A stretch of 64,000 nucleotides of DNA from Bacteroidales bacterium (GTDB taxonomy: Bacteria; Bacteroidota; Bacteroidia; Bacteroidales; P3). The stretch is taken from assembly GCA_016292015.1 (NCBI GenBank), contig JAEEZY010000029.1, positions 212,863 to 276,862 of the forward strand. Reading direction: 5' to 3'. Positions 4,511-39,332 of the stretch are shown here, piece after piece (the stretch's first letter is position 1; the number at the start of each line of letters is the position of its first letter). Made by a program: the position numbers and the translations under genes. The notes beneath the pieces are model-generated. The model ran no database searches and was not told the origin of the DNA. It worked only from the letters and a program-made list of their open reading frames with translations.

Positions 4511-4661
4511 TGTGACAGTTGACAGTTGTGACAGTTGTTTTTTGAGGTATCCCAATTTCTCTTATATTTAATATATGTTATTAATAATTAATTATTTATA
4601 TAGTATTATAAGGGATTTTGGGTATACTGATTTTTAACTGTCACAACTGTCAACTGTCACA
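4511..4661. repeat. Inverted-repeat hairpin element A (word TGACA)
   Basis: A perfect 26-nt inverted repeat (4511-4536 with 4636-4661) encloses 99 nt of AT-rich DNA. Each arm contains the word TGACA (or TGTCA) three times and the left arm ends CAGTT. The core has a second, imperfect inverted repeat (TATCCCAATTTCTCTTATA against TATAAGGGATTTTGGGTATA), so nearly the whole 151 nt can fold. Its centre shares TATTAATAATTAATTA with elements B and D. Confidence 0.85.
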
Positions 4662-4740
4662 GGAACTGTAGAGTTCATCTTCCTATTGGAATATCATGCT
4701 ATTGATATTTAGCCTTTTAGGGAAATATGATAAAGTCGGT

Positions 4741-4888
4741 TCTTCCAATTCCAGTTCTTCCAGATTAATTTTGAGGTATTCCAACCTTCTTATATTCTAT
4801 ATATATATTATTAATAATTAATTAGTTATAATAATATAAGAGGAAATTGGCATGCGTTTTTTTTATTGGAAGAACTGGAATTGGAAGA
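4741..4888. repeat. Inverted-repeat hairpin element B (word TTCCA)
   Basis: A perfect 22-nt inverted repeat (4741-4762 with 4867-4888) made of the word TTCCA three times, around an AT-rich core. The core repeats element A almost base for base over TTTTGAGGTATyCCAA...TTATATT...TATTATTAATAATTAATTA. It is only 79 nt from element A and in the same orientation, yet the arms differ. Confidence 0.85.
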
Positions 4889-5054
4889 TTTTGTTTTTGC
4901 CATCCTTTGTCGTTCTTCTCTACGAGGCCTTAAAGCGTTTGAGGATAGCCCTGAACCATCGTCTTCATCTTCTTGATATGGTGATTCGGCTCATAATTAG
5001 TGGCTGAACTGGATAAAAAACGAGCGAGTTGAGCCGTATTTTGAAAAAATATAC

Positions 5055-5062
5055 TAATTTTG
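5055..5062 (+). promoter_or_regulatory. Probable promoter box for the Fic gene
   Basis: TAATTTTG fits TAnnTTTG and lies 25 nt before the Fic start codon. Confidence 0.45.
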
Positions 5063-5087
5063 CACCGTATTTGATTTTGTGTAGGCT

Positions 5088-6119
5088 ATGGTAAAATTGT
5101 CAATACTACGTTTTTTACAGTATCATCCTCAGTCATCTCGAAAGGATATTTCCGATGGCATTGAGTTCTCAGGAAGCGATGCGACGTTGAAACGGGTGAT
5201 TTCGGCTCTGGTGTCAGAGGATAAAATTGTGGTGAGTGGTCAAGGTAAGGCCACCCGTTATAGTTTGACGAATGGTTGTCGTTTGTCGTTGCCGATAGAT
5301 GTGGATGCATATTTTGCACAAGATCAGGATGCGAGGCAGATACAATCTGGTTATAACTTTGATCTTGTCAGCGAGATACTTCCGTCTGTTTCTCTTTTCG
5401 ATGAAGATGAAATGCGACAGTTGGAGTCCACTCATGAGCGGTTTTTGTTGAATGTGAGCGATCTTTCGCCGGCCATGTATAGGAAGGAAATGGAACGCTT
5501 GGGTGTGGACCTTAGCTGGAAGTCGTCGCAGATAGAGGGCAACACTTATTCTCTTTTGGAGACGGAGCGTCTGCTGAGGGAAAGCAAGACTGCCAGCGGA
5601 AAAACACAGGAGGAGGCGATAATGTTGCTTAACCATAAAAATACGCTTAGGTTTCTTCTGGACAACAATGACTATTTGAGGGAACTGTCATTAAGGCGGG
5701 TTGAGGATATACAGTCGATGCTTGTTGAGGGTTTAGAGACGGAGAACGGGCTGCGACATCGTCGTGTGGGTATAACTGGAACAAACTATCACCCTCTTGA
5801 CAATGAGTTCCAGATTCGAGAAGCCATAGAGGGTATGTGTACACTTATAAACTCGCGGACAAATGTCTTTGAGAAGGCGTTGCTTGCGTTGTTACTGATA
5901 AGCTATATACAACCTTTTGCTGACGGCAACAAACGTACGTCTAGGTTGGTGAGTAACGGAATCTTGATGGCTTACGGATATTGTCCGCTATCATACCGCA
6001 CAGTTGACTCGATTGACTATAAGAAAGCCATGCTTGTATTTTACGAGCAAAACAATATTGTTCCGTTTAAGAAGATTTTTATCTCTCAATGCCAGTTTGC
6101 TGTTGGAGAGTATTTCTAA
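5088..6119 (+). CDS. Fic-family protein with N-terminal winged helix; catalytic His replaced by Gln
   Basis: Fic domain protein; active Fic enzymes transfer AMP or other phosphate groups to target proteins. Residues 1-65 look like a winged helix-turn-helix (SRKDISDGIEFSGSDATLKR, then a GQGKATRYSL wing). An N-terminal inhibitory motif SSQIEG sits at residues 146-151. The Fic core motif reads IQPFADGNKRTSRL: Gln275 stands where HxFx(D/E)GN(G/K)R has its catalytic histidine (codon caa at 5910), while the rest of the loop is intact. It may be a natural variant of a Bacteroidota subfamily or an inactive, regulatory Fic. An 11-nt repeat array begins on its stop codon. 343 aa is a normal length for HTH-Fic proteins. 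Confidence 0.85.
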   Translation: MVKLSILRFLQYHPQSSRKDISDGIEFSGSDATLKRVISALVSEDKIVVSGQGKATRYSLTNGCRLSLPIDVDAYFAQDQDARQIQSGYNFDLVSEILPSVSLFDEDEMRQLESTHERFLLNVSDLSPAMYRKEMERLGVDLSWKSSQIEGNTYSLLETERLLRESKTASGKTQEEAIMLLNHKNTLRFLLDNNDYLRELSLRRVEDIQSMLVEGLETENGLRHRRVGITGTNYHPLDNEFQIREAIEGMCTLINSRTNVFEKALLALLLISYIQPFADGNKRTSRLVSNGILMAYGYCPLSYRTVDSIDYKKAMLVFYEQNNIVPFKKIFISQCQFAVGEYF

Positions 6120-6170
6120 ACTCTACCTCCGCACAAGCTCCGCATTACCTCCGCATAAACTCCCTCTCTA
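6116..6170. repeat. 11-nt period array, 5 units, overlapping the Fic stop codon
   Basis: Units CTAAACTCTAC, CTCCGCACAAG, CTCCGCATTAC, CTCCGCATAAA, CTCCCTCTCTA, spaced exactly 11 nt. The first unit contains the TAA stop of the Fic gene. Confidence 0.7.
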
Positions 6171-6269
6171 TTGGCTTGAGAGGAGCGGGTGGATGGGCAG
6201 GTTTTCAGGGCATTAACTAATTGTTGATAAAATCAGGGGCGGGGTTGCTCTTGTTTCGGATATTATTAG

Positions 6270-6277
6270 TATATTTG
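6270..6277 (+). promoter_or_regulatory. gyrA promoter box
   Basis: TATATTTG, 65 nt before the gyrA ATG, with a TTG at 6251-6253 at a plausible -33 distance. Confidence 0.55.
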
Positions 6278-6342
6278 TACTTTATTTATAAAAAGAGCAT
6301 TTTGCTATCCTATTAGAAAACAAGAAATAACAGATAATAACG

Positions 6343-8931
6343 ATGGAATTCGAAAACGAAAAAATCACTAGGGTTGACATTGAGACCACGATGAAGACAG
6401 CGTATATCGACTACGCTATGTCGGTGATTGTCGCCCGTGCACTTCCGGATGTGCGTGACGGTTTGAAGCCGGTGCAGAGGCGCATCCTCTACTCGATGAA
6501 CGAGAACGGAATTTTCTACAACACGCCTACGAAGAAATGCGCCCGTATCGTGGGTGACACCATGGGTAAATACCACCCGCACGGTGACTCGTCCATCTAT
6601 GGCGCTCTTGTGCGTATGGCACAGCCTTGGGCGATGCGCTACACGCTGATCGTGGGTCAGGGTAACTTCGGCTCGATTGACGGTCACGGCGCGGCAGCCA
6701 TGCGTTACACGGAGGCGAAGCTGGAGCAGATATCGAACGAGATGCTGGCCGACATCGACGAGGAGACCGTCGATATGGTGCCGACCTACGACAACGAGGC
6801 TGTCGAGCCGACGGTGCTTCCCGCCAAGATACCCAACCTGCTGGTGAACGGCTCGAACGGCATCGCTGTGGGTATGGCCACCAATATGCCGACACACAAC
6901 CTCACCGAGGTGATGAACGGCTGCATAGCATACGTCGATAATCCCGAAATCACGGTCGAAGGGCTGATGGAGTATATCAAGGCGCCCGACTTCCCCGGCG
7001 GCGGCACGATCTACGGCTACAAGGGTGTGCAGGAGGCTTACAACACAGGTCGCGGCAGCATCATACTGCGTGCCGACACCGAGATTGAGGAAGATTCGAA
7101 GGGCCGTAACGTCATTGTGGCGAGCACGATACCTTACGGTGTGAACAAGGCCGAGATGATAAAGCGTCAGGCGCAGCTGGTGAAGGACGGCAAGATCGTG
7201 GGCATCTCGGACATACGCGACGAGAGCAGCAAGGACGGCATACGTGTGGTCTATGTGCTGAAGAACGACGTGGTGCCCAACGTGGTGCTGAACAAACTGT
7301 TCCAGCTCTCCGAGCTGCAGAGCTCGTTTGCGGTGAACAACATCGCCCTGGTGAAAGGCCGCCCGATGCTGCTCAACCTGAAAGACCTTATCAATAACTT
7401 TGTCGATCACCGCGAGGACGTGGTGACGAGACGCACCCGCTTCGAGATGGCCGAGGCCGAGAAGAGGGCGCACATACTGTCGGGACTTCTGCGCGCCATC
7501 GACATCATCGACGAGATCGTGGCGTTGATAAAAGCATCGAAGACTCCCGCCGAAGCCCGTCAGGGATTGATGGATAAATATCAGTTTAGCGAAGCTCAGG
7601 CCAACGCTATCGTCGATATGCGTCTGGCTCAGCTGACAGGCCTGAACCATCAGAAACTGCAGGAGGAATATGACGAGAAGCTGCGTTTCATCGAGCGTTG
7701 CAAGGAGATCCTGGGCGACCACAACGTGCTGATGCAGGTCATCAAAGAGGAATTCATCGCCATACGCGACAAATACGGCGACGAGCGCCGCACAGCCATC
7801 CGTCACGATGCCATCAACTTCCGCATCGAGGACACGATACCCGACGAGCAGGTGGTTATAACCATCTCGCACAAGGGATATGTGAAACGCACGCTGCTGA
7901 GCGAATACAGAACTCAGAGCCGCGGCGGCGTCGGTTCGAAAGGAAGTGCCGTACGCAGCGAGGACTTTGTGGAGCATATCTTCACCTGCACCAACCACAA
8001 CTACCTGCTGTTCTTCACCGAGAAGGGCCGCTGCTACTGGATGCGCGCCTTCGAGGTGCCCGAGGGCGAGAAGAACACCAAGGGCCGTCCGATACTGAAT
8101 TGCATAAACATAGAGCCGGACGACAAGATCAAGGCCTACGTGAACGTGGAGAGCCTGAGCGACACCGAGTATGTGGGCAACCACTACATCGTTATGTGCA
8201 CCAAGAACGGCATCGTGAAGAAGACCTCGCTTGAGGCTTACTCGCGTCCGCGTACCAACGGTATTATCGCTGTAGGCATCCGCGAGGGCGACGAGCTGGT
8301 GACGGCCCGCCTTACCGACGGCGCGAGTTACATCCTCATTGCCTCGAAGAAGGGCAAGGTGATGATTTGCCCCGAGAACGAGTTCCGCGTGATGGGACGT
8401 GGCGCAAGCGGAGTGAAGGGTATGAACCTCGACGGCGAGGACGACGGCGTGATCGACATGCTCTGTCTGCCGAGCGAGAACGAAGACCTCCTTGTGGTGA
8501 GCGACCACGGCTACGGCAAACGTTCGGCATTGGCCGACTACCGCGCCACGGTACACAGAGGCGGCAAGGGCGTAAAAGCCATGCAGGTGACCGAGAAGAC
8601 AGGTCCTCTGGCTGCCATAGTGAATGTCACCGACGAACACGACCTGATGATCATCAACAGAAGCGGCATCACAATCCGCATGAAGGTGGCCGACCTGCGA
8701 GTGCTGGGTCGCAACACCCAGGGCGTGAAGCTCATCGACCTCAAGGGCAAGGACTTCATCGCCTCGATAACGAAGGTGCCTTCGACGCCGGATGAGGACG
8801 AGGAGACCCCAGGGAATCTGGAAAATCCAGAAACCCTGGAGACACCAGAAACACCGGAAAATCCAGATTCTCACGAAACGCCCGAAACCCCGGAAAGCAA
8901 TAATCCGCAACCAGAAGATACTAAAGAGTAA
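6343..8931 (+). CDS. gyrA: DNA gyrase subunit A
   Basis: Breakage-reunion subunit of DNA gyrase, which introduces negative supercoils with GyrB. Hallmarks: the N-terminal YIDYAMSVIVARALPDVRDG, the quinolone-pocket helix HPHGDSSIYGALVRMAQ (E. coli Ser83 kept, Asp87 position is Gly), the catalytic-Tyr context AAMRYTEAKLEQ, and a C-terminal beta-pinwheel with degenerate GyrA-box-like turns (SRGGVGSKG, HRGGKGVKA). 862 aa is normal. The last 40 residues are an acidic tail of roughly ten E-T-P/E-N-P-type triplets encoded by a 9-nt repeat. The TPR protein follows after 37 nt and is probably co-transcribed. Confidence 0.97.
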   Translation: MEFENEKITRVDIETTMKTAYIDYAMSVIVARALPDVRDGLKPVQRRILYSMNENGIFYNTPTKKCARIVGDTMGKYHPHGDSSIYGALVRMAQPWAMRYTLIVGQGNFGSIDGHGAAAMRYTEAKLEQISNEMLADIDEETVDMVPTYDNEAVEPTVLPAKIPNLLVNGSNGIAVGMATNMPTHNLTEVMNGCIAYVDNPEITVEGLMEYIKAPDFPGGGTIYGYKGVQEAYNTGRGSIILRADTEIEEDSKGRNVIVASTIPYGVNKAEMIKRQAQLVKDGKIVGISDIRDESSKDGIRVVYVLKNDVVPNVVLNKLFQLSELQSSFAVNNIALVKGRPMLLNLKDLINNFVDHREDVVTRRTRFEMAEAEKRAHILSGLLRAIDIIDEIVALIKASKTPAEARQGLMDKYQFSEAQANAIVDMRLAQLTGLNHQKLQEEYDEKLRFIERCKEILGDHNVLMQVIKEEFIAIRDKYGDERRTAIRHDAINFRIEDTIPDEQVVITISHKGYVKRTLLSEYRTQSRGGVGSKGSAVRSEDFVEHIFTCTNHNYLLFFTEKGRCYWMRAFEVPEGEKNTKGRPILNCINIEPDDKIKAYVNVESLSDTEYVGNHYIVMCTKNGIVKKTSLEAYSRPRTNGIIAVGIREGDELVTARLTDGASYILIASKKGKVMICPENEFRVMGRGASGVKGMNLDGEDDGVIDMLCLPSENEDLLVVSDHGYGKRSALADYRATVHRGGKGVKAMQVTEKTGPLAAIVNVTDEHDLMIINRSGITIRMKVADLRVLGRNTQGVKLIDLKGKDFIASITKVPSTPDEDEETPGNLENPETLETPETPENPDSHETPETPESNNPQPEDTKE
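8803..8913 (+). repeat. In-frame 9-nt repeat encoding the GyrA tail
   Basis: About twelve 9-nt units of the type GAAACACCG or GAAAATCCA, each encoding E-T-P, E-N-P or a variant. The period is kept through the end of the gene without indels. Confidence 0.7.
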
Positions 8932-8968
8932 AACAAAATAAATCTGTTAACCCATAAATTTGAAAGAT

Positions 8969-10180
8969 ATGAAAAAGTCAATTTTAACATTAGCGCTTGT
9001 GGTGCTCGGCTTTGCCGCCGCCGCACAGACCCTCGAGGTGCAGAGCGCCGCGCAGGATATGCGTAAAGGCTATTTGACCAAAGCTAAAGCCTCTATCGAC
9101 AAGGCTTGCGCCAACGACCAAACCAAGGACGACCCCAAGGCTTGGTATTATAAAGGTCTTATCTATTGCCAGATTGGACAGGAGACGAAGAACCCCAAGT
9201 CGAAATACAAAGACCTGGCACCCGACTGGTGCGAGCAGGCATACGAGGCCGCTTTGAAGTGCAAAGAGCTGGACAAGGACAACGAATACTCGGAGACCAA
9301 CAACACGGTGTTCTCGTATGTAGGCGGAGAGCTCTGCAACCGTGCAACCGACGCCTTCAACAAAGACCACGATTTCGAAGCTTGCCTGAAGATGTGTGAG
9401 GACGCCATCAAGGCTTATGGCTACACGGGCGACAAGAAGTCGGCCGACTTCGCCTACTACCTCGCAGGACTTGCTTCTTCGCAGCTGAAGAAGAACGACC
9501 TGGTGAAGAAATACTTCAACATACTGATGCGTCGTAAGACCGACAAGGCCAACGTCTATCAGACACTTTTCACCATGTATCGCACAGAAGACAACAATGC
9601 TGAAGCGCTGAAGGTGGCCAACAACTTCTACAAGAACCACCCCGAGGACTACAATGCAGCACTTATGATGTCGGAGGCCTACCTGATGAGCGGCGACAAG
9701 GAAAAGAGCGAGGAGATGATCAAAACCGCCCTCAATCAGACGAAGGATAATCCAAGCGTATATGCCAAACTTCTCTGCGCAGCCGCCGAGATGCTCTCCA
9801 GCAACCAGGATTTCGCTGGCGCCGAGGCTAAATACAACGAGTCGCTCTCGATCAACGCCAACCAGTTTGAGGCCAACTTCGGTATGGGCAGTATGCTCTA
9901 CAACCGCGCAGTCGATAAAATCAACACCGAGGTTCCGTTCGACGACGAAACCGGCTTGCAGGCGAAACTTGAGGAAGAAGCCAAGGCTCTCTTCGGACAG
10001 GCAGAAAGCTACATGAAAGCCGCCGTCGCCTTTATCGACGCACTTCCCGCTGAGCAGCAGGAACTGCAGAAAGCCAATCTGGTGCACTGCCTCAACGCTC
10101 TGAAGACAATCTACGCACGTCTGAACCGAATCGACGACCTGAAGCCGATCAACGCACGTCTGCAGTCGCTGATGCAGTAA
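8969..10180 (+). CDS. Exported tetratricopeptide-repeat protein
   Basis: 403-aa protein with a clear signal peptide (MKKSILTLALVVLGFAAAAQ) and a helical, TPR-like body: blocks such as AWYYKGLIYCQIGQ, AYYLAGLASSQLKKND and NFGMGSMLYNRAVDK mark the repeats. TPR proteins of this kind are scaffolds in the periplasm; no enzymatic motif is visible and the partner is unknown. I choose the ATG at 8969 over a TTG nine bases earlier because it begins the signal peptide. It follows gyrA by 37 nt and ends at a strong terminator, so the two probably form one transcript. Confidence 0.75.
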   Translation: MKKSILTLALVVLGFAAAAQTLEVQSAAQDMRKGYLTKAKASIDKACANDQTKDDPKAWYYKGLIYCQIGQETKNPKSKYKDLAPDWCEQAYEAALKCKELDKDNEYSETNNTVFSYVGGELCNRATDAFNKDHDFEACLKMCEDAIKAYGYTGDKKSADFAYYLAGLASSQLKKNDLVKKYFNILMRRKTDKANVYQTLFTMYRTEDNNAEALKVANNFYKNHPEDYNAALMMSEAYLMSGDKEKSEEMIKTALNQTKDNPSVYAKLLCAAAEMLSSNQDFAGAEAKYNESLSINANQFEANFGMGSMLYNRAVDKINTEVPFDDETGLQAKLEEEAKALFGQAESYMKAAVAFIDALPAEQQELQKANLVHCLNALKTIYARLNRIDDLKPINARLQSLMQ

Positions 10181-10224
10181 CGTTTCAAAACCGTATCCAA
10201 GAAGATTCGGATAGGAATAAAAAG

Positions 10225-10261
10225 AGAAGCGGTTGCCATGAGGCAGCCGCTTCTTCTTTTG
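10225..10261. terminator. Bidirectional rho-independent terminator
   Basis: GAAGCGGTTGCC / GGCAGCCGCTTC stem with an ATGA loop and a T-rich tail, between the converging TPR gene and sppA. Confidence 0.8.
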
Positions 10262-10277
10262 TGCTTGTGAAGTTGTG

Positions 10278-12086: not shown

Positions 12087-12161
12087 GATGTAAATATGTT
12101 TTTTGTTGATATATTTTATGTTGGAGGGTTTTGAATTTGGGCTCCTCTGAAAAACAGATTG

Positions 12162-12169: not shown

Positions 12170-12182
12170 TTCAAAAAAAACG

Positions 12183-17858: not shown

Positions 17859-18014
17859 TATCCAAAAATTGGGGCGACCAAACTTCTTTTGTTAAAAGTT
17901 GTGAGAATTTCCGAAAAAGTTATTTATTGAATAAAATTGTTTGTTTAATGTAGGAAACAATATCGGAGTTGACCTGGATATTGAATCGCGCAGGAAATTT
18001 TCATCCCTGATTTG

Positions 18015-18212
18015 TCTTACTTTCGCCCCACGTTGTTTTGATTGGGCTCTTACCGTTATCTTAGTTTTGTCTTACTGTTATCTTACTTTTCTCTTAGCCA
18101 GCTCGTAGTTATGTCTTAGCCAGGTAGGACTTGTTACTAGGCTAGTGATAGGCTTGTGCTAGGCTAGTGCTTACCTTTCTCTTGGTTTTCCCTTACCGAC
18201 GTCTTATATTTT
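18015..18212. repeat. 11-nt period array, 18 units
   Basis: Longest strict-period array in the window. Successive units include TCTTACTTTCG, TCTTACCGTTA, TCTTAGTTTTG, TCTTACTGTTA, TCTTACTTTTC, TCTTAGCCAGC, TCGTAGTTATG, TCTTAGCCAGG, ACTAGGCTAGT, GCTAGGCTAGT, GCTTACCTTTC, TCTTGGTTTTC, CCTTACCGACG. All 18 windows stay in 11-nt register over 198 nt with no indel, although several units in the middle have drifted to another motif (CTAGGCTAGTG). The rest of the 548-nt interval 17818-18365 holds the two promoters and nothing else I can name. Confidence 0.8.
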
Positions 18213-18333
18213 TTTGCCATATAACATCGGAGAGGTTTTTGCGTCGTGATGTTTAAATACCGCTGTTATCACATGTTGAATATAAGATGGTCGTTTTTTT
18301 CTGTCATATTGATTACGGTTCTTTTTTTTTTCA

Positions 18334-18341
18334 TACCTTTG
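18334..18341 (+). promoter_or_regulatory. Promoter box for the C10 protease pair
   Basis: TACCTTTG, 24 nt upstream of the first C10 protease ATG. Confidence 0.6.
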
Positions 18342-18365
18342 CGTCTTTAAGTAACAAACTAAAAT

Positions 18366-19769
18366 ATGAAACGCAACATTCTCAGCATTGGCTTGATTTT
18401 GCTTGCCGGCTTGGCATCGGGCAATCCAGTATGTCCAGCGGAAGCAAAAAGAAGTGTGGAAACCTTTTGGCAGCAGAGCAACTGTGAAATCAGAAGCGGC
18501 GTGGCTGCCAGCGCACTTGACGACATCACTTCGCAGACGGAATTCTCGCATCTGTACATCTTCAGCAATTCCGGCGGATTTGTCATCATGTCGGGCGATG
18601 ATTGTGCCAAACCCATATTGGCCTATTCCACCAGCGGCGGTTTTGATCCTGACAATATCCCCGCAGCCGTAAGGGATTGGCTCTCCACCTACGAAACCAG
18701 GATAGAACAAGCCGTGAACCAGCAGCTGGAGGCGACGTCTGAAATCGCTGGACAGTGGGAGCTGTTGCGGTCGGGACGATGGACGGACGCTCGGAAAATA
18801 GAAACGGTAGGCCCGCTTGTGACAGCAAAATGGGGGCAGAGTTCGCCGTACAATGCACATTGTCCACCGAACACGCTGGTCGGATGTATAGCGGTGGCGA
18901 TGGGGCAGGTGATGCACTACTGGCAATATCCCGAGCATGGAACCGGCTCACATTCGTACACCAGCAACGGATACTCGCATAATGTGGATTTCTCGGGTGC
19001 AACCTATGACTATAGCGCCATGCCGAACAGCTGCAGCGGCAGCAACGACGCCGTTGCGACGCTGCTCTACCACTGCGGAGTGGCCATCGAGACAGGTTAT
19101 ACCTCGAACAATTCAACTGCATACGTCCTCAACACGGCGTCGCACCCCTACAACGCCGAGATGGCGATGAGAGATTTTTTCGGCTATAGCAGCGAGGTGC
19201 ACGGCGAGCGCCGCGTTATGTACAACAAACCCACGTGGATATCAATGCTGAAAGAAAATCTGGATGCAGGAATTCCAATCATTTATAATGGCTTCAACTC
19301 ATCCAACTCGGGTGGTCATTGCTTCATCTGTGACGGCTACGATGCCAACGATTTCTTCCATTTCAACTGGGGGCAGCGAGGTTCGTACGACGGCTTCTTC
19401 GAAATAGACGATATGACTCCGTCGAACCAGAATTTCTCGTACGACCAGGGAGCTATACTGGGATTGACCCCTGCGGTCGAAACACCCCCTGCGCCTGTCG
19501 AAGGAATCGCCGACGCGAAAGCGGCAATGCCGAAACTCCTTGTCTATCCTAACCCCACCTCGGGGCGCTTTGTCGTGGAATGTGGAAGTGACATGGTCGG
19601 AGAATGTAGATTTCGTGTTTACGACGAGTGCGGAAAGCTGTTGGTTTCTGAGAAGATGACAGACGGCGGCACCATAGATTTGTCTGCCCGCCCCGACGGC
19701 ATCTACTTCCTCCAGATGATTAAGGGCGGAAAGGTGGTCTTGTATGAGAAGATTGTCAAAGTACGGTAA
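18366..19769 (+). CDS. C10-family cysteine protease (SpeB-like) with T9SS sorting domain
   Basis: Secreted cysteine endopeptidase of family C10 (streptopain/SpeB relatives). A signal peptide is followed by an inhibitory pro-region (to about residue 140) containing SGGFVIMSGDD. The catalytic Cys lies in LVGCIAVAMGQVMHYW (near residue 174) and the catalytic His in GGHCFICDGY (near 318), followed by FHFNWGQRG. The last 80 residues (KLLVYPNPTSGRFVVE ... YFLQMIKGGKVV) are a type A T9SS C-terminal domain, so the protein should be secreted and probably surface attached. A paralogue follows 20 nt downstream. Confidence 0.92.
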   Translation: MKRNILSIGLILLAGLASGNPVCPAEAKRSVETFWQQSNCEIRSGVAASALDDITSQTEFSHLYIFSNSGGFVIMSGDDCAKPILAYSTSGGFDPDNIPAAVRDWLSTYETRIEQAVNQQLEATSEIAGQWELLRSGRWTDARKIETVGPLVTAKWGQSSPYNAHCPPNTLVGCIAVAMGQVMHYWQYPEHGTGSHSYTSNGYSHNVDFSGATYDYSAMPNSCSGSNDAVATLLYHCGVAIETGYTSNNSTAYVLNTASHPYNAEMAMRDFFGYSSEVHGERRVMYNKPTWISMLKENLDAGIPIIYNGFNSSNSGGHCFICDGYDANDFFHFNWGQRGSYDGFFEIDDMTPSNQNFSYDQGAILGLTPAVETPPAPVEGIADAKAAMPKLLVYPNPTSGRFVVECGSDMVGECRFRVYDECGKLLVSEKMTDGGTIDLSARPDGIYFLQMIKGGKVVLYEKIVKVR

Positions 19770-19789
19770 CATCTAATTTACAGGTGACT

Positions 19790-21229
19790 ATGAAGCCGAA
19801 ATATATCATTTTTCTATTATTGGCCGCTATGGTGACGGGGGTGGCGAAGGCTGCCCCCGTTGACGGCACGACCGCACGCACAGTGGCGTCGCATTTCTAT
19901 GCTTCGAAATTCAAGCAGACGCCCGAATCGCTCACCGCCACAATCGTTTACGAGGCATCGTTGCTTCGCGACGAAAACGGCGAGTGGCCCAGTTTCTATG
20001 TGGTTGACATAAACTCCGAGGGCTTTGTCATTGTGGCTGGCGACGACCGCGTGCAGCCGGTTCTGGCTTTCTCTGACGAAGGTGCTTTTGTGGCAGAAGG
20101 GATGCCGGCAAATGTGCGCTTTTTCCTCGACGGATATACCGAGGAGATTCAGTATGCGGTTGACAAAAAACAAGCTGCCGACGAGTCGGTGGTGCGCAAA
20201 TGGAACGAGCTGCTCTACGAAACGGTGGCTGAACGGAAAGACGGCAACGTGGTGGTCGAGCCGCTGCTGGGCAACAACCGATGGAACCAGACAAAGTACT
20301 ACAACGACCTCTGTCCAGCCGACGCCACCGGCAACGTCGCCTACGGCGGACATGCGGCTGTGGGATGCGGCGCGCTGGTGATGGGGCAGGTGATGCGCTA
20401 CTGGCGTTACCCCACCACGGGCACCGGAAGCCATTCCTACAACGCCACCGGATACGGCACGCTCTCGGCCAACTTCGGCGCCACCACCTACCGCTATTCG
20501 GCAATGCCCGACCAGCTCACTGCGTCGAACCATCCCGACAGCTGCGTGGAGGCTGTGGCCACTTTGCTGTATCATTGCGGTGTGGCGGTCAATATGAGAT
20601 ACGGCGCTGACGCAAGTGTGGTCAACTCGAACAACATTGTAAGCGCTCTCCCGACCTATTTCGGCTATCCCGCCACCGTGCGCTACATCGAGCGTGGAAG
20701 CCTTTCCTCGACGGTGTGGCTCAACTATCTGAAGGGAGAACTGGACGACGGGGCACCGTTCATGTACGGCGGAAGCGGCAACTATGGCGGACATGTGTGG
20801 ACCTGCGACGGATATAGAGACGACGACTTTTTCCATTTCAACTGGGGTTGGGGCGGAACGCAGAACGGTTACTACGCACTCAGCAACTGCAGCTCGTATG
20901 GATTCAACAGCAACCACGCCATCATCATCGGCATCCGAGGCCCCGAGCTGCCCACCGACCCCGAGGAGCCGGAAGTCTCCATTGAGGAACACACGGCTTT
21001 GAATGTCAATGTGTTTCCGAATCCAACCGACGGCAGCGTATATGTCTGCTCGGGGATGCAAACGGTGTTGGAGGTGCAGGTGACGGACCTGTGTGGCAGG
21101 ACGGTCTCGCGCCAAAGCGTGGGGCAGTCGGAATTCAGGGTTGACCTGTCCGAGTGCGCTCCCGGAACCTACCTGCTCAGGATGGTGACCGACAAGGGCG
21201 TAGAGACATGCAGGGTGGTCAGAAGGTAG
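19790..21229 (+). CDS. Second C10-family cysteine protease with T9SS sorting domain
   Basis: Tandem paralogue of the preceding protease with the same architecture: signal peptide (MKPKYIIFLLLAAMVTGVAKA), pro-region with EGFVIVAGDDRVQPVLAF, catalytic Cys in VGCGALVMGQVMRYWRYP, catalytic His in YGGHVWTCDGY, the FHFNWGWGG strand, and a C-terminal sorting domain starting LNVNVFPNPTDGSVYV. The ATG at 19790 is preferred to a GTG two codons earlier. The two copies have diverged well beyond recent duplication, so distinct substrate preferences are likely. Probably one operon from the promoter at 18334. Confidence 0.92.
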   Translation: MKPKYIIFLLLAAMVTGVAKAAPVDGTTARTVASHFYASKFKQTPESLTATIVYEASLLRDENGEWPSFYVVDINSEGFVIVAGDDRVQPVLAFSDEGAFVAEGMPANVRFFLDGYTEEIQYAVDKKQAADESVVRKWNELLYETVAERKDGNVVVEPLLGNNRWNQTKYYNDLCPADATGNVAYGGHAAVGCGALVMGQVMRYWRYPTTGTGSHSYNATGYGTLSANFGATTYRYSAMPDQLTASNHPDSCVEAVATLLYHCGVAVNMRYGADASVVNSNNIVSALPTYFGYPATVRYIERGSLSSTVWLNYLKGELDDGAPFMYGGSGNYGGHVWTCDGYRDDDFFHFNWGWGGTQNGYYALSNCSSYGFNSNHAIIIGIRGPELPTDPEEPEVSIEEHTALNVNVFPNPTDGSVYVCSGMQTVLEVQVTDLCGRTVSRQSVGQSEFRVDLSECAPGTYLLRMVTDKGVETCRVVRR

Positions 21230-21367
21230 ATTCCGTCGCCGCCAGCTTTCGTCCTCGAATTGTCGCCTTCGGCGTCATTCAGCTTCACTTCAGAAACGAA
21301 TGATAGCCTTCGTTTCACTCACACATAGTCGCTGCATTTCGATTGCAAAAGTATCCTATCAAACCCC

Positions 21368-21532
21368 AGCGTTACAGTGTTACAGTGTTACAGTTCGATT
21401 TTTTGATTCCACCAAACTCAAAAGAAAATTTTATATCTATATATTTATATATATAAATATATAGATATAAGTATAATTTTAACAAATCGGATGGCCTTAT
21501 TTTTAACTGTAACACTGTAACGGTGTAACGCT
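21368..21532. repeat. Inverted-repeat hairpin element C (word TTACA)
   Basis: Arms 21368-21395 and 21505-21532 match at 26 of 28 positions; each holds three GTTACA/TGTAAC words in 8-nt spacing. The 109-nt core contains a perfect 40-nt palindrome (21431-21470) of alternating T/A runs centred on TATATATATA. The left arm ends CAGTT like the other elements. Confidence 0.85.
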
Positions 21533-21797
21533 CATAAACATTCTTGCGTATAACACCAACATTATCAATCACCTATCAGTCGCCACTATAAAACGACCAG
21601 CCAACTCATTCAGTAAACCCCCGCCGAAAACAGGCAAAAATCAGCCCCAAAACAAGTCATCCGAACCCAAAATCGCTCAAAATCGACGTCAACCGAATCA
21701 GTAAAGATCACGCCGAACAGCTCAAAAAACAATCAAAAACCGTCATCACAACCCGAAAAAAGAGTCCGCAAATGCATATGTGGGGTTCCTTTCGTAC

Positions 21798-21852
21798 CGG
21801 GTAGCATACTGGGAGTTGGTACGGCGTTGGTACGGCGTTGGTTGGGAGGTGG
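21798..21852. repeat. 11-nt period array, 5 units
   Basis: CGGGTAGCATA, CTGGGAGTTGG, TACGGCGTTGG, TACGGCGTTGG, TTGGGAGGTGG in exact 11-nt register. Confidence 0.75.
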
Positions 21853-22018
21853 CCCGAAGTTAAACTAATTTTGAAATTTGAAGGTTGAGGTTGGGCTTAC
21901 AGCCGAACCTGGCTGTCAGTTTGGGTTTGTGTTGGTGACATTGGGTTGATATTGTGGGGGTTGTAATTTTGTTGAAATTTTTTTGGTGATTTATTCGTAG
22001 AACGCAATGTCGGGGTTG

Positions 22019-22026
22019 TATCTTTG
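22019..22026 (+). promoter_or_regulatory. Upstream promoter box before the 2-oxoacid oxidoreductase genes
   Basis: TATCTTTG, about 200 nt upstream of the alpha-subunit gene. It would give a long leader that includes a second promoter box; it could also start a short untranslated transcript. Confidence 0.45.
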
Positions 22027-22170
22027 CAATCGGATTGTTGGATGGGCGAGAGGGACGAGGAGTCAACCTATCAACAATCTAACTCTTTGATTTTGCGGTT
22101 GATTGGTGGGGTTGTTGATATGTTGTGGGAAATAAAGGCGTGGGAACGTCTCAACACCGAAAAAAAGTTG

Positions 22171-22178
22171 TACATTTG
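22171..22178 (+). promoter_or_regulatory. Proximal promoter box of the 2-oxoacid oxidoreductase operon
   Basis: TACATTTG, 44 nt before the ATG at 22223. Confidence 0.55.
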
Positions 22179-22222
22179 CAACCCATTAGCAAACATTAAT
22201 TTTAACAAAAAACAATATACAA

Positions 22223-32954: not shown

Positions 32955-33002
32955 CCACTCCATAAGCCCTAACTACCATTATTTCAAAATTCACAAACCG
33001 AA

Positions 33003-33017
33003 TGTCAGTATCTGGCA
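33003..33017. promoter_or_regulatory. Shared operator 2 (TGTCA-N5-TGGCA)
   Basis: TGTCAGTATCTGGCA, 11 nt upstream of the TACTTTTG box at 33029-33036. Confidence 0.75.
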
Positions 33018-33028
33018 TACCTGGTGTG

Positions 33029-33036
33029 TACTTTTG
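33029..33036 (+). promoter_or_regulatory. Promoter box of the Trp-repeat gene
   Basis: TACTTTTG followed by CATATCGAAAC, 39 nt before the start codon. Confidence 0.65.
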
Positions 33037-33075
33037 CATATCGAAACAATTAAATAAAAAAGAAAGGGAAAAAAC

Positions 33076-33606: not shown

Positions 33607-33636
33607 TAGTAATATTAACCCATAAAAAACATTCCC

Positions 33637-33858
33637 ATGAGCAAAGTTTTCAGAATCACACCGAAAGCCGTGCGGAGAGTCAACGGCACCGTATTGACAC
33701 CCGAAATGACAGTAGTAGTCACCTGTAAGATGCACACCAGCGACCCGTTCTATAACGGTGCGCAGGAAATACAAGAGGCTTACATGCGACTATATGGCTA
33801 CGATTACAAGAAGGCCGGCTGCAACAAAGGCTATTTCGATTACGAGGCACTTGACTAA
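33637..33858 (+). CDS. Small conserved-looking protein, function unknown
   Basis: 73 aa, starting MSKVFRITPKAVRRVNG, with a strand-rich first half (LTPEMTVVVTCKMHTSDPF) and an aromatic second half (YMRLYGYDYKKAGCNKGYF). No known motif. The 30-nt gap and the terminator just downstream make it the second gene of the Trp-repeat transcription unit, so it should be under shared operator 2. Confidence 0.6.
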   Translation: MSKVFRITPKAVRRVNGTVLTPEMTVVVTCKMHTSDPFYNGAQEIQEAYMRLYGYDYKKAGCNKGYFDYEALD

Positions 33859-33908
33859 AGGTGTACATGCAGGTCTCCGTAGAAATCAGCACCTGCAGAA
33901 ACGCAGTC

Positions 33909-33939
33909 AGTAGGGGCGCAACAACATTGCGCCCCTACT
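33909..33939. terminator. Strong bidirectional hairpin terminator
   Basis: Perfect 13-bp stem AGTAGGGGCGCAA / TTGCGCCCCTACT with a 5-nt CAACA loop. Confidence 0.75.
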
Positions 33940-33965
33940 AATATTTCTAAACAAGTCACCCACCA

Positions 33966-34021
33966 ACGCAATAACACAATAAATCACTAACGCATTAACA
34001 CAATAACGCAATAACGCAATC
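33966..34021 (+). repeat. 8-nt period array upstream of the PLD gene
   Basis: ACGCAATA, ACACAATA, AATCACTA, ACGCATTA, ACACAATA, ACGCAATA, ACGCAATC: seven octamers in strict register, followed by a weak promoter-like TACCTTTA at 34033. Confidence 0.7.
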
Positions 34022-34049
34022 AGAATTTTTCGTACCTTTACCCCCACTT

Positions 34050-34565
34050 ATGATTGAATATATCGCCGATAGAGACCACTATATCAAAGTGTTAAGCTAC
34101 TGTTCGCAGGTAAAGCACGACCTTTGGATAGGCACCGCCGACCTCAAGGACCTCTATGTGGGAGCGTCGAAGGGCAAGGTCGAACCCTTCCTCGCGGTGC
34201 TCGACAAGCTGCTGAAGCGCGGAGTTGAGATACGGCTGCTGCATGCCAAAGAGCCGGGAGACAATTTCCGTGAAGATTTCGACAAGTATCCCGGCTTGTG
34301 GACGCGGTTGGAGCGACGGCTGTGCCCGAGAGTGCATTTCAAACTGATGGTTTTCGACTGCTCGAAGGTGTATATCGGCTCCGCCAACCTCACGGGAGCG
34401 GGTATAGGGATGAAAGGCGAAGGAAACCGCAACTTCGAAGCCGGCATCCTGACCGATGACCCCAAGCTCGTTGACGCCGCCGCCGACCATCTCGACAACG
34501 TCTGGCAAGGCCGTCCTTGCAAGACATGCAAGAGAAAAGACTTTTGTGGGGATAGGATTGGATGA
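34050..34565 (+). CDS. Phospholipase D-like (HKD) protein, nuclease candidate
   Basis: 171-aa single-domain PLD superfamily protein. One HKD motif is present, HFKLMVFD followed by YIGSANLTGAG (near residues 95-115); single-HKD proteins act as dimers, and short cytoplasmic ones are often nucleases. The C-terminus GRPCKTCKRKDFCG contains a cluster of cysteines that could bind zinc. No signal peptide. The two DUF262 genes start 43 nt downstream, so this is likely the first gene of a three-gene unit, and in that company a DNA-directed role is more probable than lipid hydrolysis. Confidence 0.78.
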   Translation: MIEYIADRDHYIKVLSYCSQVKHDLWIGTADLKDLYVGASKGKVEPFLAVLDKLLKRGVEIRLLHAKEPGDNFREDFDKYPGLWTRLERRLCPRVHFKLMVFDCSKVYIGSANLTGAGIGMKGEGNRNFEAGILTDDPKLVDAAADHLDNVWQGRPCKTCKRKDFCGDRIG

Positions 34566-34608
34566 TAGAATATTCTGTTAAATAACGAATAATTAAAAGT
34601 AATACTAT

Positions 34609-36306
34609 ATGGCAGAAATAAATTTGGAGACAAAATTAGTCGGTGAAATTCAAGGTGAATTTTACATACCCGACTATCAGCGCGGCTATCGTTGGGGGAA
34701 AAACGAAGTTGAGACACTTCTAAACGATATAAGCGAAAACGGCAGTAAAATCAAAAAATCAAGTAATGAGAATTATTGCCTTCAGCCCATCGTGGTGCGC
34801 AATCTTGTTGATAAATTTGAGCTCATTGATGGGCAGCAACGGCTTACTACGATTTACCTTGTATATGTTTATATGAACAAAGCAAGCAACGGTTTTATGA
34901 GCGAGCCAAGATTCTCCATATCATATGAAACACGCAACGAATCCGCAGAATTTCTGAGAAGTTTGGACGAAAACAAAAAAAATGACAATGTAGATTACTA
35001 CTTCATCTACAATGCCTATAAAACCATCGAGGAGTGGTTCTCAAAAAAAGAAAAAACTCAATCCGCCGTAACAAACATAAACACGTTTTTCGACAAATGT
35101 GTAAAAGTAATTTGGTACGAAGTACCCGATTCTGAATGCAGCATTGACCTATTTACTCGATTAAATATAGGGAAAATCCCATTAACAAGTTCTGAGCTTG
35201 TCAAGGCCCTGTTCCTCAAAGGCGAAAATGAAAATCACATTCGACAAGAAGAGCTGTCCCTTGAATGGGATAACATAGAAAAAGAACTACACAACGAGGA
35301 TTTCTGGGGATTCCTCACAAATTCCGACAACGACATTTATTCAACTCGTATAGATTTGGTTCTGGATTTAATTTCCAATAAACAACTCTCCGACAAAGAA
35401 ACCTACAGAACATTTTTTTATTTCGACAATGAACTTAAAAATGGCGCCTCCTTAGAAAACATCTGGGACGAAATCCAGCATAAATTCTTGACACTAAAGG
35501 AATGGTTTTCCAACCACGAATTTTATCATAAAATAGGTTATCTCATAGCGAGCGAGTCCAAAAACCTGACGGATATTTTAAGTGACTATGCCGATAAACC
35601 GAAGTCAGAGTTTCGGCACTATTTAGATGAATGCATAATAGACAGTATCAACTTCAAAAAAGATTATTATGATTTGGATTATGAACACGACTACAATGCA
35701 GTAAAAAAGCTCTTGCTCCTTTTCAACGTTGAGTCCGTACGCCAAATCGATGACAAAGAACGGAGATTTCCATTTAATAGACACAAAAAAGAAAATTGGA
35801 GCCTTGAACACATTCATGCCCAACACTCAGAAGGCTTAAAAACGAACGAGAAAATCGCAGAATGGCTGAAAGCACACATCAAATCACTGCAATCTATCGG
35901 CGGACATGACAATTTGATTGCCAATATGGACCAACTAACAAAATCCATCGCAGACAATCCAAAGACAACAAAAGTGCGAGAGCAATTTGAGCCATTGCAA
36001 AAGCAAGTGGTAAAGGTTCTATCTCCTGCGGGCGAAGAGGCAGGCTCCTACATACATCTACTGCCTAACATGGCACTGCTTTCGTCCAAGCAGAACTCTG
36101 CTGTAAGTAACTATACATTTGATGCCAAACGCAACCTAATTTTAGAAATGGACAAAAACGGTTCATATATTCCATTTTGCACAAAGATGGTATTTCTGAA
36201 ATATTATTCAGCCGAAGATACAAATATGCATTTTTGGGGCAAGAACGACCGTGACGCATACTACAGAGCCATACATGATGTACTGAAATCTTACATGACA
36301 ATTTAA
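34609..36306 (+). CDS. DUF262-DUF1524 protein (GmrSD-type nuclease candidate)
   Basis: 565-aa protein of the ParB/DUF262 superfamily. The N-terminus has FYIPDYQRGYRWGKNEVETLL and the nucleotide-binding signature DGQQRLTT at residues 74-81. The C-terminal part contains an HNH-like DUF1524 motif, NWSLEHIHAQHSEGL, near residue 400. This is the order found in GmrSD-like type IV restriction enzymes, where DUF262 hydrolyses NTP and DUF1524 cuts modified DNA. The gene is distinctly more AT-rich than the core genes, consistent with transfer. The next gene, 21 nt downstream, is a second DUF262 protein. Confidence 0.85.
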   Translation: MAEINLETKLVGEIQGEFYIPDYQRGYRWGKNEVETLLNDISENGSKIKKSSNENYCLQPIVVRNLVDKFELIDGQQRLTTIYLVYVYMNKASNGFMSEPRFSISYETRNESAEFLRSLDENKKNDNVDYYFIYNAYKTIEEWFSKKEKTQSAVTNINTFFDKCVKVIWYEVPDSECSIDLFTRLNIGKIPLTSSELVKALFLKGENENHIRQEELSLEWDNIEKELHNEDFWGFLTNSDNDIYSTRIDLVLDLISNKQLSDKETYRTFFYFDNELKNGASLENIWDEIQHKFLTLKEWFSNHEFYHKIGYLIASESKNLTDILSDYADKPKSEFRHYLDECIIDSINFKKDYYDLDYEHDYNAVKKLLLLFNVESVRQIDDKERRFPFNRHKKENWSLEHIHAQHSEGLKTNEKIAEWLKAHIKSLQSIGGHDNLIANMDQLTKSIADNPKTTKVREQFEPLQKQVVKVLSPAGEEAGSYIHLLPNMALLSSKQNSAVSNYTFDAKRNLILEMDKNGSYIPFCTKMVFLKYYSAEDTNMHFWGKNDRDAYYRAIHDVLKSYMTI

Positions 36307-36327
36307 GAATAGCAAAAAACAAATATC

Positions 36328-38550
36328 ATGGAAACTAAAACTTTCAAAACGATATTTTCTCTTCGGGAAGAAGCTGGTAAAAGAATTGGAATAGAAAGAA
36401 TCGAGATCCCGAAGATCCAACGGGATTTCGCATACGGACGGACGGATGCTATTAATACCAGAAAAAGAGAGAACTTCTTGAAATCTTTGTTATACGCCGT
36501 TTCTGGAAATCCTATCACTCTTGATTTTGTATATGGCGACATTAAGGACAATAAATTCACTCCACTCGATGGTCAGCAGCGACTAACGACACTTTTTTTG
36601 TTGTACTGGTTTGCCTCCAAACTGGATGGCGTTATAGATAACGAATGCGCATTCTTACGAAAATTCAGCTACGAAACTCGCACATCTGCCCGAAAGTTCT
36701 GTGAGGCAATAACCACCAAACCATTCGAGATAGACTCTAGGATGCTTTTGTCCGAACAAATAAAAGACAAAAATTGGTTTCCACTTGAATGGCAACATGA
36801 TGCCACAATTTCATCGATGTTAGTTATGCTTGATGCCATTCAAAGCAAATTCTCCAAAGTAGACCATCTTTTAACAAAACTCGAAAACATTTCTTTCTAT
36901 TTTCTGGAAATTGAAGATATGGGTCTAACCGATGAACTGTATATCAAGATGAACTCACGAGGCAAACCACTGACACAATTTGAACATTTTAAAGCCGAAT
37001 TCGAAAAACAACTGAAACAGGCCGATGCGGATCTGGCAAAAAGGTTAGGCTCCAAAATTGACAAAGAATGGACGGATCTATTGTGGCAATATCACAACAG
37101 TGGCTTGGGCAACGACAATGATGATACAACCGACGACGAATTTTTGCGTTATTTCATCTTCATATGTAACATTATATGCTATAATAATGGTGGCAGCCCT
37201 AAAACGAGCGATGAATTCGAATTGATAAGAGAATATTTCACTGTGAACGTTGACGACGACGAACAGATTGACAGAAGCAGAAAGAAAGTTGTAGAAAATG
37301 CCATAACTTTGGAAAAATTCTTTGACTGCTGGCTTGATGAGAACAAGAGAAGCATTCCAATTCAGAATTTTTTTGAGATGTTTGCTTCCAAAGAACACGC
37401 GATAGGCAAAATCAAAACAAACTACAATGTTAACCTGTTCGAAGACTGTTTAAGAAACTATGCGGATATAATCGGAAAAAAAAGAAGAAAATTCACTTTG
37501 AATCAAATTATTCTGTTGTATGCATTTGTTCTATACAGGCAAAATATGTCATACGTCTCTGAGGATGATTTTCGCAGACGATTGAGAATATTGAACAATT
37601 TGATTCTAAACTCACCTGACCAGATAAGCGACAGCGAGGAACGTCAAGGCGGAAACCGTCTACCTGCAATTCTACGTCAAACAGACAGCATCATATTGCA
37701 CGGAATAATTGCCGATAGTGAAACCATCGGCATCAACTTCAATCCCACACAATTGGAAGAAGAGAAGACAAAACTTGAGTGGACAAAAGCAAACCCGGGC
37801 AAGGTCGAACACCTCTTCGCCCTAGAGGATCACGAATTGCTCTATGGTCAAATATCAATAGTCGGGTTGGAACATTATGAACACTTTGAAAAATTCAAAG
37901 CCTTGTTCGAATGCAATTGGGACTTGGTCGATTGTGCATTGCTTATAACTGGCGATTACAAACAGCGCGAACGGAACGGTTGGCGATATCAACTTGGATC
38001 CTCTATGAACGATGGATTTGCATGGAAAATGCTTTTTCACAGAAGCGATGGTTTTCAAGGGTTTGAGAAAACAAAAACGGTGTTAAACAATTTGTTGAAG
38101 CAGATTCCAACTGTCACAGACGACACTCTGAAACAGATAATTGACCACTATTTAAACCAATGTGAAAAAAATAACACATACCCTTGGACATACTATTACA
38201 CAAAATATAAAGTGTTCCGTGCAGATCGTTACGGCAAGTATTGGTGGGACAACTTTGAAGAATCTCCATACGTTTTCACAACTCTTCACACCGCAAAAAA
38301 CCCTTCACCGAATTCATACAATCCGTTTCTAAAAGCTTTGAGCGACAATGTATGGCGTGAATGGTATGGAAATTATATTGAGCTCGGCAATGACCGTCTA
38401 TTGAAAGAGTCGCAGTCATCATACCAAATCGTCACAAACGATGAAGAGGAGAAGGTACTTGATGAAATCTTAATTTTGCAAGGACTCGATGGAATCGATA
38501 AAGAAAACCGAATTGAAAAAATGAAGGGAATATTTGAAAGTCTTAAATAG
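36328..38550 (+). CDS. Long DUF262 protein without visible HNH motif
   Basis: 740-aa partner of the preceding gene. It has the DUF262 entry IPKIQRDFAYGR and LDGQQRLTTLFLLYW near residues 80-90, but I find no DUF1524 His/Asn motif; instead the C-terminal half is rich in aromatic and charged residues (VEHLFALEDHELLYGQIS, YWWDNFEESPYVF). It may be the NTP-sensing or specificity subunit for the nuclease-bearing neighbour, or have an unrecognised effector domain. AT-rich like its partner. A hairpin terminator follows. Confidence 0.75.
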   Translation: METKTFKTIFSLREEAGKRIGIERIEIPKIQRDFAYGRTDAINTRKRENFLKSLLYAVSGNPITLDFVYGDIKDNKFTPLDGQQRLTTLFLLYWFASKLDGVIDNECAFLRKFSYETRTSARKFCEAITTKPFEIDSRMLLSEQIKDKNWFPLEWQHDATISSMLVMLDAIQSKFSKVDHLLTKLENISFYFLEIEDMGLTDELYIKMNSRGKPLTQFEHFKAEFEKQLKQADADLAKRLGSKIDKEWTDLLWQYHNSGLGNDNDDTTDDEFLRYFIFICNIICYNNGGSPKTSDEFELIREYFTVNVDDDEQIDRSRKKVVENAITLEKFFDCWLDENKRSIPIQNFFEMFASKEHAIGKIKTNYNVNLFEDCLRNYADIIGKKRRKFTLNQIILLYAFVLYRQNMSYVSEDDFRRRLRILNNLILNSPDQISDSEERQGGNRLPAILRQTDSIILHGIIADSETIGINFNPTQLEEEKTKLEWTKANPGKVEHLFALEDHELLYGQISIVGLEHYEHFEKFKALFECNWDLVDCALLITGDYKQRERNGWRYQLGSSMNDGFAWKMLFHRSDGFQGFEKTKTVLNNLLKQIPTVTDDTLKQIIDHYLNQCEKNNTYPWTYYYTKYKVFRADRYGKYWWDNFEESPYVFTTLHTAKNPSPNSYNPFLKALSDNVWREWYGNYIELGNDRLLKESQSSYQIVTNDEEEKVLDEILILQGLDGIDKENRIEKMKGIFESLK

Positions 38551-38597
38551 CATTTCATTTTGTGATTCTATCATTCTCGGTTTCAATTTTCACATCT

Positions 38598-38629
38598 GTG
38601 CTGGATTGTTGATCCGGCACTTTTGTTTT
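38598..38629 (+). terminator. Terminator of the DUF262 unit
   Basis: GTGCTGGAT / ATCCGGCAC stem (one T-G pair), 5-nt loop, then TTTTGTTTT. Confidence 0.65.
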
Positions 38630-38738
38630 ATAGTGGGATTCTTTCAAAATTGACATTGTTTTGGTGGGCTTTAAGTCCTAACGTTCAACAGCTACTTGAA
38701 AAAAATCTCTCAGAGTCAGTTATTTAGCCCAATGCTAT

Positions 38739-38885
38739 CATAACAATAACAGTATAACAGTTTGAAAAATGGATATTGGTTACGCCTTTATATATCATAT
38801 AACTAATTAATTATTAATAGTATATATAAGAATTAAGAAAACTGATATATCTCGAAAAAGTAACTGTTATACTGTTATTGTTATG
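38739..38885. repeat. Inverted-repeat hairpin element D (word TAACA)
   Basis: Perfect 24-nt inverted repeat (38739-38762 with 38862-38885) enclosing exactly 99 nt. The word TAACA occurs three times per arm. The core carries TATTAATAATTAATTAGTTATA on the minus strand, so D is inverted relative to A and B. Left arm ends CAGTT. Confidence 0.85.
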
Positions 38886-38958
38886 AGCGAGGGCTGACCT
38901 CTTTGCCTAAAAAGCAAATATACAGCAAGATATGATACTTGGGGGGGGTGTCTCGGTT

Positions 38959-39105
38959 CTTACAATTACAGTTCTTACAGTTAAAAATTGGATGACAATT
39001 ACATCTTCTATATGCTATATAAATACTTAATATATAGAATATTATATATGGTATTACTGAAATTGTAATGCACAAAAAAGAAACTGTAAGAACTGTAAGT
39101 GTAAG
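38959..39105. repeat. Inverted-repeat hairpin element E (word TTACA)
   Basis: 24-nt arms (38959-38982 with 39082-39105, 23 of 24 paired) enclosing exactly 99 nt. The left arm has the same word layout as element B with TTACA in place of every TTCCA. The core is AT-rich but lacks the TTAATAATTAATTA block of A, B and D. Confidence 0.85.
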
Positions 39106-39264
39106 ATTTTTCGAAAAAACACTTGATTTTGCATCGAATTTGGTGAAAAATGACAAAAAAATCAGTAAAAAATTGATGATTTTGGAGCGGAAATGGGGAT
39201 CCGATAGTGAGGCTTGGAAATACATGTATTTAATAACCAGATGATTGCCTTGGTTGCCGTTGCG

Positions 39265-39332
39265 CCGTTGCACCGTTGCAGTTCGTATTACGATAGGGGG
39301 TATTTCCATTTTGAACTGCAACGGTGCAACGG
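39265..39332. repeat. Short hairpin element F (word TTGCA)
   Basis: Perfect 20-nt inverted repeat (39265-39284 with 39313-39332) with only 28 nt between the arms and a T8 run after the right arm. The left side carries extra TTGC words before the paired region. It shares the CAGTT arm end with the long elements but lacks the AT core, and resembles a terminator. Confidence 0.75.

Follow-up and report, generated by a model that had tools for sequence, protein, structure and literature searches.

Inverted repeats with variable words in a Bacteroidales genome as probable solo copies of an iteron-type replication origin paired with a predicted helicase

The window analysed here, a 64,000-nucleotide (nt) stretch of the genome of a Bacteroidales bacterium (assembly GCA_016292015.1, contig JAEEZY010000029.1, positions 212,863 to 276,862), contains six inverted-repeat elements, A to F, in which a short word is repeated along each arm and varies between elements. 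The elements are probably stand-alone copies of iteron-type replication origins from a little-known Bacteroidales mobile-element family, whose predicted helicase would recognise the word. In intact relatives the repeat lies upstream of the predicted helicase gene, and a predicted DNA-reading helix of the encoded protein changes together with the word, so the elements are likely to be replication start sites.

The intact loci have the order gene 1, repeat, gene 2 and primase gene. In a consensus of 26 copies, gene ends flank the repeat on both sides. Starting from the fragment L077:2395-2694, 342 related proteins were retrieved. The set of intact loci consists of the best 80 of 201 related loci, found from an alignment of ten related proteins; by record title they come mostly from rumen and gut Bacteroidales, including Segatella copri and Prevotella. 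Gene 2, of about 435 amino acids (aa), is intact (425-450 aa) in 68 of the 80 loci. Among the 77 loci with at least 150 nt of upstream sequence, 73 have a word repeat before gene 2, and in 69 of these the modal word occurs at least three times. The distance from the end of the repeat to the start of gene 2 is 32-69 nt (median 40), and the median AT content of the core is 0.75. As a control, the same detector applied within gene 2 was positive at 10 of 204 positions. Downstream of gene 2, a CHC2 primase gene is found in all seven loci for which open reading frames (ORFs) were listed; Pfam recognised the CHC2 zinc finger in both of the downstream proteins scanned, and PHROGs also supports a primase. 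Some loci further carry DUF4248, HU-like and M15 peptidase genes. The repeat is usually preceded by a small ORF of variable kind, which was present in 72/77 loci when a loose rule was applied. In loci L181-L260 this gene 1 (approximately 110-200 aa) falls into several apparently unrelated classes that occupy one position, in many cases 10-40 nt ahead of the left arm, resembling an exchangeable module.

The protein encoded by gene 2 is predicted to be an AAA+ helicase of the MCM/Cch type with a C-terminal winged helix. Its structural model was matched to Cch (5dgk) by Foldseek with an E-value of 1.8e-3, and its sequence identity to MCM is about 10%. A Foldseek search with the C-terminal domain returned winged helices, none of them below an E-value of 0.036. 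This helicase family is without a name in the protein libraries searched. Of 120 genomes of the genus, 40 were matched by the gene 2 profile, with many of the matches being fragments or relatives of about 750 aa; of 190 genomes of the family, 20 had near full-length matches with E-values of 1e-100 or better, and all 20 belong to this genus. By tblastn, gene 2 had no match among 50,697 phage records and 72,556 plasmid records; it was found on one IMG/VR contig.

The word is associated with specific residues of this protein. On nearest neighbours by gene 2, 32 of 53 loci shared their word with the neighbour, while the largest value reached in shuffles was 30. In a scan of 215 variable columns over 57 loci, residue 408, which lies in the second helix of the winged helix, the predicted recognition helix, had the strongest association with the word (z 13.4, the next column reaching 7.0). 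In the table of 62 loci (the 57 and five new ones), residue 408 was Lys in 32/32 loci with TTCCA, Val, Met or Leu with TTTCA, Asn in 4/4 with TATCA, Gln in 6/9 with TTACA, and Gln, Lys or His with TGACA. In independent pairs taken on a tree of gene 2 residues 1-375, residue 408 differed in 13 of 14 pairs with different words and in 3 of 21 pairs with the same word (Fisher 4.6e-6); when same-word pairs at a comparable distance were used, it differed in 2/12 (p 1.7e-4). The adjacent residue 407 follows the letter preceding the 5-mer, which is unambiguous in 61 loci (60 of them on the tree): Tyr accompanies C in 12/13, Arg accompanies G in 35/38 and Asn accompanies A in 5/10. In independent pairs, p was 8e-5 for this letter zero with residue 407 and 1.6e-4 for the third letter with residue 408, whereas the crossed controls, in which letter and residue were swapped, were not significant (p 0.16 and 0.26). 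Such pairings are chemically plausible, as Lys and Arg suit guanine, Gln and Asn suit adenine, and hydrophobic side chains suit the methyl group of thymine. The covariation is evidence that the predicted helix recognises the word. MCMs are not known to read short words through such a residue code.

If the elements are origins, the winged helices of the helicase would bind the three iterons on either side of the AT-rich core, helicase hexamers would melt the core and then load, and the primase from the next gene would prime synthesis. A joint change of word and helix would then give an element a private origin. A further-reaching version, which we regard as tentative and somewhat short of an even chance, is that there is a readable code in which residue 407 specifies the first and residue 408 the fourth letter of a six-letter word, that many private origins coexist in one genome, and that solo origins are cis-acting parasites copied in trans.

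Several points weigh against the interpretation as origins read by the helicase. The model of the helicase is of moderate quality (mean predicted local distance difference test score 70) and resembles MCM by fold alone, and the protein has no Pfam family over the cut-off, no NCBIfam and no PHROG family. Positions 407 and 408 were chosen from the same data that lie behind most of the p-values, which are therefore not prospective. Twelve later loci are the sole loci outside the selection data; five belong to a diverged subfamily, and five of the twelve also entered the 408-word and 407-letter tables; read by eye, they followed 'Lys408 if and only if the third letter is C' in 12/12 cases (two with C) and the 407 rule in 10/12, the diverged loci L295 and L297 being the ones that break it. 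The code is also incomplete, as a third letter A is found with Gln (9), His (2), Val (3) or Lys (4) at residue 408 (n=18), so that four loci have Lys without C, and it is loose for a preceding A, where Asn is present in only half of the loci. Gene 1 has a word association of its own, with 26/53 nearest neighbours sharing the word (17.7 expected, largest of 2000 shuffles 31). Word-based exclusion between neighbours, a form of incompatibility, was not supported: 2 of 25 adjacent copies share a word (3.4 expected), and in nine genomes with two loci, read by hand, the 5-mers differ in seven, where about six are expected from a sharing rate of 0.33. The core of element C and the short element F are without an identified intact counterpart and are not explained by the intact copies. 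Lastly, the helicase gene may be regulated from the same site. Gene 1 is less likely than gene 2 to be the reader of the word, its association being the weaker one.

The main rival is that the repeat is an operator, in which case the winged-helix protein would control its own operon by binding the words, with replication starting at another site. The position of the repeat directly before gene 2 suits an operator, and covariation of residue and word would be expected equally; we nevertheless consider it unlikely, as an origin is the better match for a long AT-rich core with inverted triplets of iterons on either side, for a predicted fold resembling MCM and for the presence of a primase gene, and inverted triplets spanning about 150 nt are seldom seen in operators. 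The earlier note on this DNA had favoured selection on a paired structure, or a templated copying process, as the cause of the design. Arms maintained by RNA or DNA hairpin selection, or by copying from arm to arm, would account for their high complementarity, and the A/G letter following the word does agree between arms more often than expected (87/132 versus 75.2, a level reached in 10 of 2000 shuffles), which is a further point against word recognition by the helicase as the whole account. This agreement is slight, so pairing or inter-arm copying is a modest signal at most. A third of the post-word letters disagree although the words agree, a protein residue predicts the letters of the word, and no Rfam family matches in the window at gathering thresholds, where a described structured RNA was thus also rejected. 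With the word kept within an element and tracking the amino acids of the predicted DNA-reading helix, pairing or copying as the main cause is improbable.

A miniature inverted-repeat transposable element (MITE) or transposon end, with the arms as terminal inverted repeats moved by a transposase, could explain the many dispersed short copies without genes, their inverted arms and their location at the edges of gene-content differences between relatives. However, homology runs on beyond the arms: measured over 75 oriented copies, it exceeds 0.8 as far out as about 175-200 nt past the repeat on one side and drops to 0.5 by 200 nt on the other. The variable ends are, moreover, tracked by a residue of a predicted helicase and not of a transposase, and we regard this origin of the arms as very improbable. 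Two other known kinds of repeat were also considered and rejected. For integron attC sites, the integron integrase family TIGR02249 was over the cut-off in none of the five element-rich genomes, in which other tyrosine recombinases match below the cut-off. For repetitive extragenic palindromic (REP) sequences with RAYT proteins, the Y1 transposase family PF01797 was unmatched in the element carriers G000, G008 and G014; it was present in G003, in G023 and in 4/5 genomes in which the covariance model described below found no element.

In the window itself, scanning for inverted repeats with arms of 22 nt or more, up to two mismatches and a loop of 20-160 nt returned exactly six matches, and these are the six elements listed in the earlier note (Table 1). 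Across 20 surrogates generated from the window by an order-1 Markov model, the total was a single match; the family is far above chance. The description of one word repeated three times per arm holds for A to E, with six copies of the 5-mer each (those of C read from the sequence); F has four. The regular spacing was borne out as well: arm-to-arm distances of 99, 98, 109, 99 and 99 nt had been given for the five long elements, and the loops from A to F are 97, 102, 117, 97, 97 and 26 nt by our detector, which defines the arm ends differently. Simple divergence from a single terminal sequence does not account for this fixed layout with changing words, in agreement with the note. The note had also assigned the elements to the three gene-free intervals of greatest length. 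When ORFs are simply counted, the top two are 21230-22222, at 993 nt, and 4133-5087, at 955 nt; the interval with D, E and F (38551-39728) would rank largest only without a 146-aa ORF (38881-39321) overlapping E and F, which we take to be spurious. Searching for CAGTT and AACTG separated by a gap did not discriminate, with 86 matches in the forward direction versus 110 in the reversed control.

Table 1. Coordinates of the elements and other features in the window. For elements A, B, D and E, the strand is the direction of the helicase gene in intact relatives.
Feature	Position	Strand	Description
Element A	4510..4662	-	TGACA three times per arm, AT-rich core; covariance-model match C34 217374-217523
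Element B	4740..4889	-	TTCCA three + three times; core homologous with A
Repeat island with A and B	4175..4935	.	Homology with three other G014 islands starts at about 4170-4176 or has a piece there
Element C	21367..21532	.	TTACA three + three times; self-palindromic core, unlike the others
Element D	38737..38887	+	TAACA three + three times; core homologous with A/B reversed
Element E	38958..39106	+	TTACA three + three times
Element F	39256..39334	.	Short form with TTGCA words; loop without AT-rich core
DUF3987 gene, intact	61474-63750	-	758 aa; PF13148 match; contig end

Elements A, B and D (reversed) have homologous cores (CTTATAT..TATTAATAATTAATTA..ATATAAG), and the elements therefore form one family with variable arms. 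Element D also has the downstream flank CCTAAAAAGCAA, the same as in intact elements, and core orientation and flank motifs are mostly concordant where both are readable. A scan of 391 kb of the same genome, covering the window, the remainder of its contig (C34) and contig C6 (arms of at least 18 nt, at most one mismatch), returned A to F, an inner hairpin of C and three elements on C6, with no other family. The three-element array on C6 has the words TGACA, TTCCA and CTACA, and its first two elements are 74% identical with A-B, linker included. A similar copy of element C is present on contig C18 of this genome. Repeat runs of TTGGGAGTTAG / CTAACTCCCA lie at the outer end of each island, A-B (4201-4240) and D-E-F (39405-39600), in matching relative orientation, and at 39478-39510, in the interval with D, E and F, there is an extra unpaired triple word (GTTTAC CGTTTAC GGTTTAC AGTTG) that resembles a lone half-arm.

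A covariance model built from five copies detected eight places in the genome of the window, palindromic copies being counted once (14 rows). Related genomes were found to contain the family: over 41 genomes, and among the matches listed, seven had matches, which were strong in G000, G003, G008, G014 and G023, all of one genus, and weak in G009 and G019. Among the matches listed there was none in the other 18 genomes of the genus or in the 16 genomes that represent the order's other families. Copy numbers per genome in this survey are lower bounds obtained with stricter filters, and both strands of a palindromic copy were entered. The loci of the five element-rich genomes contained 103 inverted repeats by the inverted-repeat scan, a few of them unrelated, and 88 of these gave a word, with 15 different 5-mers. 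In G003 several copies are spaced at about 676 nt; its loci L077-L083 are tandem units of this length, each with a different word and with truncated gene ends, and resemble origin-only derivatives. A second subfamily has GTAACA/TTACA words and a near-perfect palindrome of 168-176 bp around CTTATATCTATATA (L061:2041-2216, L074:941-1108 and L109:1028-1195; compare element C and L096), and its cognate gene was not found.

In the genome of the window, gene 2 was not found by profile search, and there was no remnant of genes 1-3 in the 391 kb; the window copies are therefore solo copies and not complete replicons. They could be either fossils or cis-acting parasites that formerly relied on helicases acting in trans. 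The window is collinear with the relative G014, and the interruptions touch the repeat islands. Positions 2500-4174 are replaced in G014, with similarity returning at 4175, where other G014 islands also start; positions 17931-22069, which hold C, correspond to about 106 nt; and positions 34607-40400, which hold D to F, are replaced. A clean empty site was not isolated in this comparison. The words of A and B are unchanged in G014, so the inheritance of the word is stable on that time scale. Genes of the Fic and GmrSD types adjoin the islands, near these three differences in gene content.

Positions 189-433 of the gene 2 profile, which include the winged helix, also match genes in the genus that are about 750-760 aa long, with E-values to 6e-45, and these genes were classed by resemblance with genes matching PF13148 (DUF3987). 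There were five PF13148 matches in 3/12 genomes, one in the window, three in G014 and one in G018. Bacteroidales proteins of the DUF3987 type (approximately 740-800 aa) are almost double the length of the gene 2 protein. Genes of about 750-770 aa in other genomes of the genus encode a C-terminal winged helix related to that of the gene 2 helicase. At loci L287, L288, L290 and L291, which carry a gene of about 750 aa, no word repeat was present in the fetched stretch, the downstream side. DUF3987 genes were ruled out as the cognate gene, since the fetched surrounding loci had no word repeat. A first idea that the flanking ORF is the N-terminus of a DUF3987 protein was not borne out by Pfam.

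With the interpretation as solo origins, a puzzling repeat family of gut and rumen Bacteroidales would become a predicted replicon whose protein-DNA code can be tested, and could supply natural origin-initiator pairs that differ in specificity. If true, mobile elements of Bacteroidales would use initiator-iteron replication like that of Staphylococcus aureus pathogenicity islands (SaPI) and staphylococcal cassette chromosomes (SCC), and genomes would retain numerous solo origins left by such elements. The literature searched, PMC7145576 included, yielded no account of the elements, the residue-word code or the replicon family, with subscription papers and preprints lying outside the search.

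The earlier note knew of no described element with this design, which was too strong, as the iteron origins of SaPI and SCCmec work similarly (PMC7581432). In SaPI, the initiator Rep is a helicase that loads itself and recognises short iterons in the adjacent origin through its C-terminal domain, and a primase is encoded in the element (PMC7581432); a predicted initiator helicase, adjacent iterons and a primase gene are likewise combined in the gene 2 loci. The SaPI origin is downstream of rep (PMC7581432), whereas the Bacteroidales repeat is upstream of gene 2. The elements also differ from SaPI in their three plus three inverted iterons of 5-6 nt, the readable correspondence between residue and letter, and their Bacteroidales hosts. 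In the putative origin of SCCmec, three 5-nt iterons (AAGTG) are bound by the C-terminal domain of the initiator helicase Cch2 (PMC7581432), a likeness that extends here to short iterons and a Cch-like predicted fold. However, only the direct repeats are needed for binding in SCCmec and the inverted repeats are dispensable (PMC7581432), whereas two inverted iteron sets flank the AT-rich core in the Bacteroidales elements, and the primase is of the CHC2 type, in contrast to the polymerase-MP pair of SCCmec. The intact relatives have repeats beside the initiator gene, an AAA+ helicase with a C-terminal domain by predicted structure and a primase gene, as in SaPI and SCC, while the six window copies have no initiator gene beside them. 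By analogy, the Bacteroidales system appears to work like these known pairs of initiator helicase and iterons, and to differ from them in layout, host and readable code.
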